Source: Candidatus Hinthialibacter antarcticus (lineage in GTDB: Bacteria; Hinthialibacterota; Hinthialibacteria; Hinthialibacterales; Hinthialibacteraceae). Taken from it: DNA of 64,000 nt. The DNA lies in NCBI GenBank assembly GCA_030765645.1, contig JAVCCE010000058.1, positions 1-64,000 of the forward strand. The letters are read 5' to 3'. The notes under the pieces are model-generated. The model was not told the origin of the DNA. It worked only from the letters and a program-made list of their open reading frames with translations, and made no database searches. Position 1 is the first letter of the stretch. Each line of letters opens with the position of its first letter. Shown in pieces: positions 61,256 through 64,000 of this stretch. A program made the position numbers and the translations under genes.

Positions 61256-62215
61256 ATGATTGTTTTCACTGGAGAGCGCGGCTTGAGCGACGTGTTAGTT
61301 TTAAATTCTTGCGGCGAAGTAGAATTTCGCCCGGTTGAAGCCGCTTCGCCCGGCGCGGGCGAGGTGCGGGTTGATGTGCATCTCACCGGTGTCGAGCAGG
61401 GGCTTGACCTTGCCGCGTTGCGGGCCGGGCGCGAATCACAGCCGGGAGGCTGGGGCGTTGGCAAGGTGCTCGAAGTGGGGCGCGGCGTTTGCGGGGTGCG
61501 GCGCGGCGAGTGGGTGCACGCGCTAATGGCGCATGGCGCCCGGCAGGTATTGAAGGCGGAGAACGTGTACCCGCTGCAATGGCTGCGTAAGGAATTCGCC
61601 GTCTTCGTCGGCCCCGGCGTACACGCATTGCGTTGCGTCCACGCCGCCAACATTCGCTATGGCGACCGGGCGGCGATCTTCGGCATGGGCGCGGTGGGGC
61701 TGATGGCGCTGCAATTCGCCACGCTCAACGGCGCTTCGGAAATCATCGCCCTGGATGCGCACCAGCCGCGCTTACGCATCGCGCAGCGTCTGGGCGCGCA
61801 CGGCGTGTTGCAACTCGAGGAGCCGTGTCTGTTTCGCGACGATATGCTTCAGATGGACGCGGTGGTCGAACTCTCCGGCCATGATGACGCGCTGCGGGCG
61901 GCTCTTGCCAATGTGCGTAAGGGAGGAACCTTTGTCGCGGGCGGGGCGGGCTATTCAAGCGAGGCGCTAGGGCAAACCGCCGACGCGGCCCAGCAGCAGA
62001 GCGTTCAGTTTATCTCTTCTATTGAATCTACCAGCGAAGACCGCATCGAAGACCGGGTGATCCGCAGCCTCGACAATCAGCAGGTGATCGTCTGGCCGAT
62101 CATATCGCACATCCTGCCGATTTCCGACGCCCCCGCCGCCTACCACAGCATCCAACAAAACCCCGAAACATACATCAAAGTGCTTTTTCAGTATGAAGGA
62201 TTTTTTTCCAGATAA
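61256..62215 (+). CDS. Medium-chain dehydrogenase/reductase (MDR) family protein
   Basis: A 319-residue protein. The GroES-like N-terminal domain is GAGEVRVDVHLTGVEQGLDL...GVGKVLEVGRGVCGVRRGEWV; the Rossmann domain has AIFGMGAVGLMALQFATLNGASEIIALDAHQPRLRIAQRLGAH, the usual NAD(P) binding site with an acidic residue (D) after strand two, favouring NAD. The cysteine set of the structural zinc is missing. Relatives include sorbitol and other sugar-alcohol dehydrogenases. The start is uncertain: ATG at 61256 has no ribosome site, while a TTG at 61284 has GGAGAG ahead. The stop codon lies inside the first GATAAC box of the next region. Confidence 0.75.
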   Translation: MIVFTGERGLSDVLVLNSCGEVEFRPVEAASPGAGEVRVDVHLTGVEQGLDLAALRAGRESQPGGWGVGKVLEVGRGVCGVRRGEWVHALMAHGARQVLKAENVYPLQWLRKEFAVFVGPGVHALRCVHAANIRYGDRAAIFGMGAVGLMALQFATLNGASEIIALDAHQPRLRIAQRLGAHGVLQLEEPCLFRDDMLQMDAVVELSGHDDALRAALANVRKGGTFVAGGAGYSSEALGQTADAAQQQSVQFISSIESTSEDRIEDRVIRSLDNQQVIVWPIISHILPISDAPAAYHSIQQNPETYIKVLFQYEGFFSR

Positions 62216-62258
62216 CTAATGATAACCTTAAGATAACTAATGATAACAATAGGATACC
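62211..62258 (+). promoter_or_regulatory. Phased array of five GATAAC-type boxes
   Basis: GATAAC begins at 62211, 62221, 62232 and 62242, with GATACC at 62253. The spacings are 10, 11, 10 and 11 bases, i.e. one per DNA turn, all on one face. It can also be seen as two copies of GATAACTAATGATAAC 21 bases apart. The array ends directly at the -35 position of a perfect TATAAT (62281-62286), as expected for an activator or repressor site. Confidence 0.6.
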
Positions 62259-62286
62259 TTAGGTGTTTTTTGTTGTCGAGTATAAT
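62259..62286 (+). promoter_or_regulatory. Candidate regulated promoter P1
   Basis: TATAAT at 62281-62286 is a perfect -10. The best -35 is poor (TTAGGT, 62259-62264, 16-base spacer), as in activator-dependent promoters. It abuts the GATAAC array. Confidence 0.45.
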
Positions 62287-62447
62287 TACCTCTAATAATT
62301 GAAGATAATCACGAAAAGTATTTATTTTATGGGTTTATATGTTGCAACTCAATATTCAGTTGGTATATATATGTAAATGAAAATTCATCAGCCTTTGATA
62401 GGTGTGTTTTTAGTATAAGTACTATTAACATTGAATAAAATCAATTG

Positions 62448-62476
62448 TTGACATTGAGGTTACAAGAGGATACAAT
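62448..62476 (+). promoter_or_regulatory. Strong sigma-70-type promoter P2
   Basis: TTGACA (62448-62453), a 17-base spacer, TACAAT (62471-62476): 11 of 12 consensus bases at ideal spacing. The predicted start near 62483 would make an RNA carrying the leader ORF and hairpins that follow. Confidence 0.75.
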
Positions 62477-62514
62477 CCTCAATTGAATAAGTAAATATTC
62501 AGATTGATTTTTTT

Positions 62515-62562
62515 AAGGAGGTGATGGCGATGTTTAGAATAAAAAATGCCTTTTCTGGCTAA
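62515..62562 (+). CDS. Possible leader peptide (10-12 codons) with near-ideal ribosome site
   Basis: AAGGAGGTGAT (62515-62525) is complementary to nearly the whole anti-SD tail of 16S rRNA. Eight bases after GGAGG comes ATG (62530) reading MFRIKNAFSG and TAA (62560-62562); an in-frame ATG at 62524 would add MA. The last five codons form the left arm of the following hairpin, so ribosome movement would open it. No gene family; called on signals only. Confidence 0.5.
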   Translation, partial: KEVMAMFRIKNAFSG

Positions 62563-62644
62563 TCGCATCAATCCAGAAAAGGCGTAATACAAGAAAGGCC
62601 TTCTATTCCGCAATCCCTGATCAAGGTGGTGGAATAGAAGGCCT
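62548..62644 (+). ncRNA. Structured leader or small RNA: two long stem-loops
   Basis: Hairpin 1: GCCTTTTCTGG (62548-62558) / CCAGAAAAGGC (62573-62583), 14-base loop. Hairpin 2: AGGCCTTCTATTCC (62596-62609) / GGAATAGAAGGCCT (62631-62644), a perfect 14-bp stem with a 21-base loop. They lie between promoter P2 and a terminator, giving a transcript of about 195 bases. On the minus strand hairpin 1 is followed by TTTTTTATTC and could be a terminator there. I know of no Rfam family with this layout. Confidence 0.5.
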
Positions 62645-62648
62645 GATG

Positions 62649-62675
62649 CACATCTTACGATGTGTTAATTTTTTT
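62649..62675 (+). terminator. Terminator ending the structured leader/small RNA
   Basis: CACATC (62649-62654) / GATGTG (62659-62664), four-base loop, then TTAATTTTTTT. It is short but has a clear T-run. It lies upstream of the gene at 62765, so read-through or attenuation would be needed to reach that gene from P2. Confidence 0.6.
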
Positions 62676-62764
62676 CTTTGAAGTAGTAAATCGAAATTTG
62701 CTTGCGCTCAACGTGATCATATCAGAGCGCTTTATTTATAAAGTAAACTTTCAAGGATTATATC

Positions 62765-63289
62765 ATGGCTTCCCCACAAAGGCGAGCAATAGAGGAAAAA
62801 CGTTTAGAATTAAGGTTAAGTCTTTGGCCAAAATTGAATGTTAATGATCTGTGGAATAAAAAAAAGAATCAAGGATTCACAAATGTACCAAGGACTATCC
62901 CAATCATCTTAAAGATAATGGACAGTATGTCTAAAGGGCGTCCTGTCTCATCTGTATACTTAGATTTATGGTGTCGCTCATTTGACGAGTCATTTATAAC
63001 ACTAAATAAGTCGAAAGAAATGGCATTTAGTTCTGGTTATACTGGTCAGCGTGCAGAAAAAACTTGGGAAGATAGGTTAAAAATATTAGCAAAGCTCAAA
63101 TTTATTGACCTTAAATCAGGACCACATGGTGTTTGTAGTTATGCTCTAATTTGGAATCCATACCTTGTAATAAAAAATCATTATAAAGAAAAAAAAGATG
63201 GTTTAACAGAAGATTTATATAATGCACTTTTAGCAAGATCAGTTGAAATAGGAGCTCGTGACCTTCTTTCTAGAGAGAATAGTGAATAA
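62765..63289 (+). CDS. Conserved hypothetical protein, possibly nucleic-acid-binding, AT-rich gene
   Basis: A 174-residue protein starting MASPQRRAIEEKRLELRLSLWP. I recall similar unnamed proteins in unrelated bacteria sharing PRTIPIILKIMDSMSKGRPVSSVYLDLWCRSFDESFITL, AFSSGYTGQRAEKTWEDRLKILAKLKFIDLKSGPHG and YALIWNPYLVIKNHY; the helix-turn-helix-like middle suggests a winged-helix fold, as in replication or regulatory proteins. There is no signal peptide. Base composition is much more AT-rich than the flanking genes, suggesting recent transfer. Function unknown; it may be governed by the leader region upstream. Confidence 0.6.
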   Translation: MASPQRRAIEEKRLELRLSLWPKLNVNDLWNKKKNQGFTNVPRTIPIILKIMDSMSKGRPVSSVYLDLWCRSFDESFITLNKSKEMAFSSGYTGQRAEKTWEDRLKILAKLKFIDLKSGPHGVCSYALIWNPYLVIKNHYKEKKDGLTEDLYNALLARSVEIGARDLLSRENSE

Positions 63290-63394
63290 TTGTATTAATC
63301 ACCCTTTTATAGCGCTGGGCGCCGAGCCAAGGCCGTGCAGCGAAGCAGCCCACCGATTACCTGATCTCATCCTGGGAATAAACGCACAATCTAC

Positions 63395-63495
63395 TCCCTC
63401 TCCCGCTGGGAGAGGGCTGGGGTGAGGGCTTTAATTTCGATTTCAAAACCTAATTCTAAACCCTCATCCTCCGCTTTCTCCCATAGGGAGAAGGG
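63395..63495. repeat. Inverted pair of REP-like palindromes
   Basis: The first unit (about 63395-63428) is CCCTCTCCCGCTGGGAGAGG plus CTGGGGTGAGGG. The second (about 63461-63495) is the same type in reverse orientation (CCCTCATCCTCCGCTTTCTC, then CCATAGGGAGAAGG). Two inverted REPs around a spacer of about 30 bases resemble a REPIN. The motif is common in many bacteria. Bases 63300-63345 hold another GC-rich repeat fragment. Confidence 0.65.
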
Positions 63496-63518
63496 ACTAC
63501 GCCCCTACTTCAATTCAC

Positions 63519-64000
63519 TCAGCGAAATAAATTCCAGTCATCAACTTCGGCGGGCGTGAACTTGCCTGTCGAGGTGATAAGGGTGTTTCCGTTATCTAAA
63601 TGAACCACGCCCGGATCGCTGCCGAATCCGGTATGTTCATAGGCTTGGGCAACGCCAAAATCGGCGCCGTCTGCGGCGTCGGCAAACCACATCGACCCGA
63701 ACAGGCCTTTACCTTTAACCAGGGTTCCATAAAAACGCACCCGCCCGTCAAGAAAGACTGCGCATCCCAACCAGTTCTGCCCGAGTTCGTTCACCAGGTC
63801 GTCTTGCCGTTCGAATGCCAGCCCATCGCTTGAAGTCGCGTGATATGCTGTTCCCACCGCGCCCTGAATCGGCGAGTAAAGATGAAACTCATCATCCGTG
63901 CGGACCACGGCGCAATCAATCATCGGCGCATCGTCAACGCCGAAGCGCTCGCCTTCTTCATAGACGTAGTGGATTCCATCGGTTGAAACGGCTGAGTAGA
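63519..64000 (-). CDS. C-terminal part of a GH43/GH32-like propeller glycosidase (cut by window edge)
   Basis: The frame is open to the right edge; the start lies beyond base 64000. Visible are about 160 residues with repeating propeller strands: YSAVSTDGIHYVYEEGERFGVDDAPMID, VVRTDDEFHLYSPIQG, AYHATSSDGLAFERQDDLV, GCAVFLDGRVRFYGTLVKG, DPGVVHLDNGNTLITSTGK. The SxDGxxF/DxxP pattern is that of five-bladed propeller glycosidases and related sugar-binding proteins. The catalytic residues, if any, are in the missing part, so the family is not fixed. It ends in DDWNLFR. Confidence 0.55.
   Translation of the reverse strand, partial: YSAVSTDGIHYVYEEGERFGVDDAPMIDCAVVRTDDEFHLYSPIQGAVGTAYHATSSDGLAFERQDDLVNELGQNWLGCAVFLDGRVRFYGTLVKGKGLFGSMWFADAADGADFGVAQAYEHTGFGSDPGVVHLDNGNTLITSTGKFTPAEVDDWNLFR

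Follow-up and report, generated by a model that had tools for sequence, protein, structure and literature searches.

A compact peptide-coding leader, with a candidate antisense RNA, ahead of a mobile and predicted winged-helix gene in Candidatus Hinthialibacter antarcticus

The 64,000-nucleotide stretch of Candidatus Hinthialibacter antarcticus DNA analysed here (contig JAVCCE010000058.1, positions 1 to 64,000; the window) contains, at positions 62448-62675, a compact leader that looks transcribed, carries a genuine Shine-Dalgarno (SD) sequence and peptide ORF, and belongs to no described family. Downstream of it lies a plus-strand gene (62765-63289) whose 174-aa product is predicted to be a winged-helix DNA-binding protein of an unnamed plasmid and phage family, and which is the presumed target of the leader. 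Tentatively, we favour the view that the element is the leader of a mobile, plasmid-type gene, whose product would be a winged-helix protein that binds iterons, and that the leader is subject to control by an antisense RNA.

Results

The leader element

The leader begins with a sigma-70-type promoter (TTGACA-17-TACAAT, 62448-62476, plus strand) that matches the consensus at 11 of 12 positions, has the top PWM score on either strand between 62100 and 63300 (14.7) and, from its position, predicts a transcription start near 62483. It is followed on the same strand by the SD sequence AAGGAGGTGAT (62515-62525) and by a ten-codon ORF, ATG to TAA, encoding MFRIKNAFSG (62530-62562); a second in-frame ATG at 62524, upstream of this start, would yield MAMFRIKNAFSG. 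Hairpin 1 (62548-62583), which can form on both strands, has a perfect 11-bp stem (arms 62548-62558 and 62573-62583) and a 14-nt loop. Hairpin 2 (62596-62644) has a perfect 14-bp stem (arms 62596-62609 and 62631-62644), a 21-nt loop and a sense-strand energy of -31.9 kcal/mol. An intrinsic terminator on the sense strand (62648-62675), with a 7-bp stem at 62648-62665, a TTAC loop and the T-run TAATTTTTTT, ends the element about 90 bases before the gene, the end of the leader ORF being about 200 bases from it. The first-pass annotation of the window had listed the promoter, SD, ten-codon ORF, two hairpins and terminator, and all are present in the sequence where it had placed them; absent from its account were the 174-aa gene, the iterons and operator described below, and the role that hairpin 1 may have on the minus strand.

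Both long stems are far beyond chance. The predicted RNA (62483-62675) has a minimum free energy of -64.7 kcal/mol, where 200 dinucleotide shuffles give -40.3 ± 3.9 kcal/mol (z = -6.2). When 62483-62764 was shuffled 2000 times, 0.5% of the shuffles contained a stem of at least 11 bp and a 14-bp stem never appeared. Hairpins 1 and 2 account for two of the four perfect stems of at least 11 bp (loop of at most 25) in the 64-kb window. The sense terminator is ordinary by itself: a stem of at least 6 bp with a T-run is found in 8.7% of shuffles, and one such site was found where 1.2 are expected. As for the SD, the pattern AAGGAGGTGATN4ATG (the AAGGAGGTGATNNNNATG site) occurs a single time in the 5.15-Mb assembly, namely in the leader. 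A search of the assembly for the host 16S 3′ end gave no match, the 16S gene being probably missing from the assembly.

The annotation had named no matching described element, and this agrees with our searches: none of the 4227 Rfam models reaches its gathering threshold in the window, and under relaxed settings the top-scoring model for 62400-62800, mir-4875, reaches 23 of the 90 bits required. A search of the host genome for copies of the leader returned the leader itself and nothing else. In plasmids and phages, blastn at E values up to 1 returns chance matches of 22-34 bases only, and the hairpin-2 pattern has no match in IMG/VR. The annotation had also proposed a test by conservation. The leader ORF, hairpins and sense terminator have no counterpart in any of about 50 relatives of the downstream gene, which weakens the annotation's interpretation but does not kill it, since the closest of these relatives are themselves only about 50% identical to the 174-aa gene.

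The downstream gene and its family

Members of the family to which the 174-aa protein belongs are found in 164 plasmid records, with 26-54% identity among the matches listed, and also in a Burkholderia phage, 31 IMG/VR loci and 11 genome contigs; a further copy lies inside a 4.6-Mb contig. The family ranges over plasmids, phage-like contigs and chromosomal insertions. The protein has no match among Pfam, NCBIfam, PHROGs and PADLOC models, nor to the PDB by sequence. An AlphaFold model built from a 19-sequence alignment has a pLDDT of 88, and its best fold matches in the PDB include the winged-helix regulators MarR, BusR, SarA and TubR; these matches are weak, none having E <0.05. From this model, the protein is predicted to be a winged-helix DNA-binding protein.

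Two properties of iteron-type initiators were found, namely: iterons upstream of the gene and a DNA-binding fold, the latter taken from the weak model matches; no Rep match was obtained in Pfam, NCBIfam or PHROG. Nor does the protein have to act in replication initiation, since two enterobacterial member plasmids (L007 and L008) carry the RNAI of ColE1, which is lacking on a 3.3-kb Pasteurella plasmid of the family. Both L007 and L008 are small plasmids, and each combines ColE1 RNAI and the iteron/winged-helix module with a second gene of 164-187 aa that has no Pfam match.

The gene located 3′ of the family member varies and is often of a toxin or defence type (L005, L010, L011, L048, L050 and L060). 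These neighbours include AbiJ, an AbiD/PD-T4-5-like protein, an NYN nuclease (HEC-09), a PBECR2 nuclease, YafQ and a weak match to PDC-M04A. Members of the family may be markers of a locus for defence or addiction in which the effector can be exchanged. Unlike many of its relatives, the gene in the window has no effector gene downstream; its ORF is intact and keeps the conserved motifs.

A small AT-rich islet

The leader lies within an AT-rich islet of about 1.1 kb, which has a GC content of about 0.33 compared with about 0.57 around it and contains one clear gene, that at 62765-63289. It is flanked by a zinc-dehydrogenase-like gene (61256-62215) and by an opposite-strand gene ending at 63519. 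The gene family is absent from five genomes of the host's own family and from 380 further genomes, and so the islet is probably a small foreign insert that was horizontally acquired. Beyond the islet, at 63400-63500, there are imperfect, REP-like palindromic repeats (CCCTCTCCCGCTGGGAGAGGGCTGGGGTGAGGG).

Upstream layout shared with relatives

An iteron-like array of five GATAAC/GATACC units with 10-11 bp spacing is located at 62210-62256 (TRF period 10/21, score 73), and relatives have arrays of approximately 10-bp repeats, of GAGCAC type, at the matching relative place. About half of the relatives also carry the palindrome AACTCAN4-5TGAGTT upstream of the gene, approximately 140 bp past the iterons. 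The window has a degenerate form of this operator palindrome, AACTCAATATTCAGTT (62346-62361, by pattern match), some 105-135 bp past its iterons, and thus keeps the family's upstream order of iterons and then palindrome. In addition, the leader promoter contains a putative operator (62454-62482), which consists of the inverted repeat TTGAGG-N17-CCTCAA and the tandem units GAGGTTACAA/GAGGATACAA (TRF, 62456-62475). GAGGATACAA resembles the last iteron, and the promoter 12-mer ACAAGAGGATAC equals ACAATAGGATAC of the iteron array with one mismatch. The presence of this iteron-like unit pair inside the promoter suggests that the 174-aa gene may be autoregulated.

The leader occupies the slot between palindrome and gene, which is variable. 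In the IMG/VR relatives this slot consists of about 110 bases with no large hairpin, and in Alphaproteobacteria it holds a different structured leader.

TCCA-loop leaders in Alphaproteobacteria

In alphaproteobacterial and a few other loci (L004, L005, L012, L014, L015, L045-L055 and L064), the family gene is preceded by one to four hairpins with the loop [CG][GT]TCCA[AC]AC, in which TCCA is invariant, at -33 to -240 from the gene start. In 16 loci there are 35 sense-strand TCCA[AC]A words, which were not selected for pairing, within 260 bases of the gene; around 31 of the 35, at least 5 of the 6 flanking pairs can form, compared with 1 of 63 such words elsewhere in the same loci. Across 27 of these hairpins, 91.5% of pairs form as opposed to 59.8% in shuffles, a comparison that is biased because the hairpins were pre-selected for inner pairing, and all 7 pairs change on both sides. 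Matches of the TCCA model at E ≤0.01 in whole genomes and records fall within this leader wherever the position was checked, and Rfam has no match at these leaders. The TCCA-loop hairpins make up a conserved, covarying RNA or DNA motif that is tied to one gene family, absent from Rfam and apparently restricted to this leader. In L053 (2251-2476) and L055 (about 2330-2456), the inter-hairpin segments AGCCCTCGG and AGCCCTTGG could, by eye, pair with the 5′ arm of the final hairpin (AGGGCT, AAGGGCT), an arrangement to be expected of mutually exclusive structures.

These leaders resemble that of the window in preceding the same gene family, in filling the same operator-to-gene slot and in having several sense-strand hairpins; they differ in their unrelated loop and stems and in having neither a terminator nor a leader ORF. 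The possibility that the window leader is a diverged TCCA-loop leader was rejected: no TCCA[AC]A word occurs on either strand of 62200-62764, and the TCCA-loop model R1 scores at best 6.2 bits on the window leader versus 24-37 for most copies.

The opposite strand

In the minus-strand reading, ATTTTTTATT comes after hairpin 1 (tail at 62538-62547), making this hairpin a candidate antisense terminator. It is the sole minus-strand hairpin of at least 10 bp with a T-tail in the 64-kb window and the strongest such terminator-like site, and a comparable minus-strand site appears in 0.05% of 2000 shuffles. A candidate antisense promoter, TCGCCT-17-TATAAT with the extended -10 element TGATATAAT, is found by consensus match at 62757-62785 (minus strand), where it overlies the start codon of the gene; its PWM score of 11.7 is the best on the minus strand in 62100-63300. 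In this AT-rich region, an extended -10 element with at most one mismatch occurs in 15% of shuffles. A weaker candidate, TGATATGAT, matches the minus-strand consensus at about 62716-62724. The antisense fold of 62712 to 62530 is highly structured (z = -5.7). The combination of a terminator-like hairpin 1 on the minus strand and an extended -10 candidate over the start codon suggests that the leader may be paired with an antisense RNA, as happens in copy control of the pIP501 type, the candidate transcript running from about 62750 to about 62540 and including hairpin 2.

Predicted response of the leader fold to translation

The annotation had proposed that translation of the peptide would melt hairpin 1, and that the element resembles a translation-sensing attenuator. 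Folds in which a ribosome footprint was masked uphold the first part, in that a ribosome in the middle of the ORF or at its stop codon opens hairpin 1, and do not support the second: hairpin 2 and the terminator are unchanged with the footprint at the start codon, in mid-ORF or at the stop. An SD-bearing leader ORF does lie upstream of an intrinsic terminator, as in attenuators; in the masked folds, outside which pseudoknots fall, none of the three positions reveals a competing structure or a ribosome-dependent, mutually exclusive terminator and antiterminator. The terminator forms with a pairing probability >0.99 in the free leader. A search for an antiterminator by masking and constraint showed that forbidding the terminator costs about 6 kcal/mol and gave no convincing alternative. 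The peptide has no codon run, and classical amino-acid attenuation is unlikely, as the annotation had judged.

Part of the hairpin 1 loop, ATCGCATCA, is by eye the reverse complement of the SD/start segment TGATGGCGAT (62515-62532), apart from a single additional G. It is conceivable that the two form a pseudoknot in which the start codon of the leader ORF is hidden.

Discussion

Under the reading that we favour, transcription would begin near 62483 and be governed by an operator to which the 174-aa protein probably binds, and the nascent RNA would carry the short peptide, whatever role this may have, and then two strong hairpins and the terminator before the gene. Most transcripts would end early because the terminator lies ahead of the gene. 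An antisense RNA would start over the start codon of the gene, end at hairpin 1 and pair with the leader, thereby tuning the amount of full-length mRNA, much as RNAIII does in pIP501. Several observations argue for this reading, namely: the promoter-terminator-gene order, with iterons and operator shared with relatives; the placement of the leader in the slot that holds a different structured leader in alphaproteobacterial relatives; the strongest terminator-like site on the minus strand of the window, which the best minus-strand promoter match closely precedes when read antisense; and the highly structured fold that the antisense transcript would have, together with the pIP501 precedent. Doubt comes from the antisense promoter being a mere consensus match, from the occurrence of the leader in no relative and from the protein not needing to be an initiator. 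Moreover, with no antiterminator and with the terminator present in every fold tried, nothing is visible for an antisense RNA to switch.

Control of rep in pIP501 combines a repressor at the promoter with an antisense RNA, RNAIII, that induces attenuation within the leader (PMC4981023). The window resembles the repR leader of pIP501 and pAMbeta1, with its RNAIII and CopR, in having a plasmid gene with an operator at its promoter, a structured leader and a terminator before the gene; the likeness would extend to a possible antisense RNA ending inside the leader. Unlike those systems, the window leader lacks an antiterminator, and no default antiterminator that antisense pairing could disrupt appears in free-leader folds; in addition, the gene family is unrelated to RepR, and the protein bound at the operator would be the gene product itself. 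An SD, a short leader ORF and the idea of an antisense RNA are features in common with the repA leader of R1/IncFII plasmids (CopA/CopT, tap). In the window, the ORF ends about 200 bases before the gene with an intrinsic terminator between them, and so tap-type translational coupling presumably does not apply. The trp, erm and cat leaders likewise have an SD, a short ORF overlapping a stem, and a terminator; the window differs from these peptide attenuators in having neither a codon run nor an alternative pairing, and in a downstream fold that is indifferent to the position of the ribosome.

Other explanations were weighed against the same evidence. The 62483-62675 segment could be a stand-alone small RNA of about 190 nt, its peptide functional or not, with a constitutive terminator and with the gene silent or served by another promoter. 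The terminator that forms in all folds without an alternative structure would fit this, as would the strong promoter and SD and the two very stable hairpins, which are typical of stable RNAs. We consider it unlikely, if a serious contender: the best plus-strand promoter between terminator and gene scores 7.7 compared with 14.7 for that of the leader, the element sits directly between operator and gene as leaders do in relatives, and it has no second copy or relative anywhere. The islet might instead be what is left of a plasmid or phage that integrated and is now decaying, its expression and regulation lost, as its small size (about 1.1 kb) and AT-richness, the absence of the gene from the 5 genomes of the host's family and the 380 others and the missing downstream effector would allow; with the ORF intact, its conserved motifs retained, and a perfect promoter, SD and stems that decay would not be expected to leave, this second main rival is improbable.

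The model of the first-pass annotation, in which hairpin 1 is melted by a ribosome translating MFRIKNAFSG, with an effect on termination or downstream expression, draws on the perfect SD, the overlap of the ORF with the 5′ arm of hairpin 1 and the terminator before the gene. Footprint masking alters neither hairpin 2 nor the terminator, relatives lack the ORF, and hairpin 1 is explained at least equally well as an antisense terminator, which together make the model quite improbable. Finally, sense and antisense features that converge on a small ORF would also suit a type I toxin-antitoxin-like or other module, made up of a peptide mRNA and an antisense RNA and unrelated to the downstream gene. 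Known type I toxins are longer than 10 aa and have a membrane-spanning stretch. The 10-aa peptide has no such stretch and nothing similar exists in relatives or databases, so that we regard a module of this kind as highly improbable.

Returning to antisense control of the leader, a wider proposal can be made, although we hold it to be a fairly improbable one: that a family of mobile regulators of winged-helix type, often with a toxin or defence gene next downstream, is controlled through leader RNAs by at least two unrelated devices. One would be the TCCA-loop array of Alphaproteobacteria; the other, seen in the window, would be a leader that encodes a peptide and is countered by an antisense RNA terminating within the codons of that peptide, with hairpin 1 common to both strands. 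If the leader works as proposed, it would represent a new device for RNA-based control, attached to a mobile gene family that has as yet neither a name nor an assigned function, and the iterons, operator, structured leader and variable toxin or defence neighbour would be joined into one testable system.
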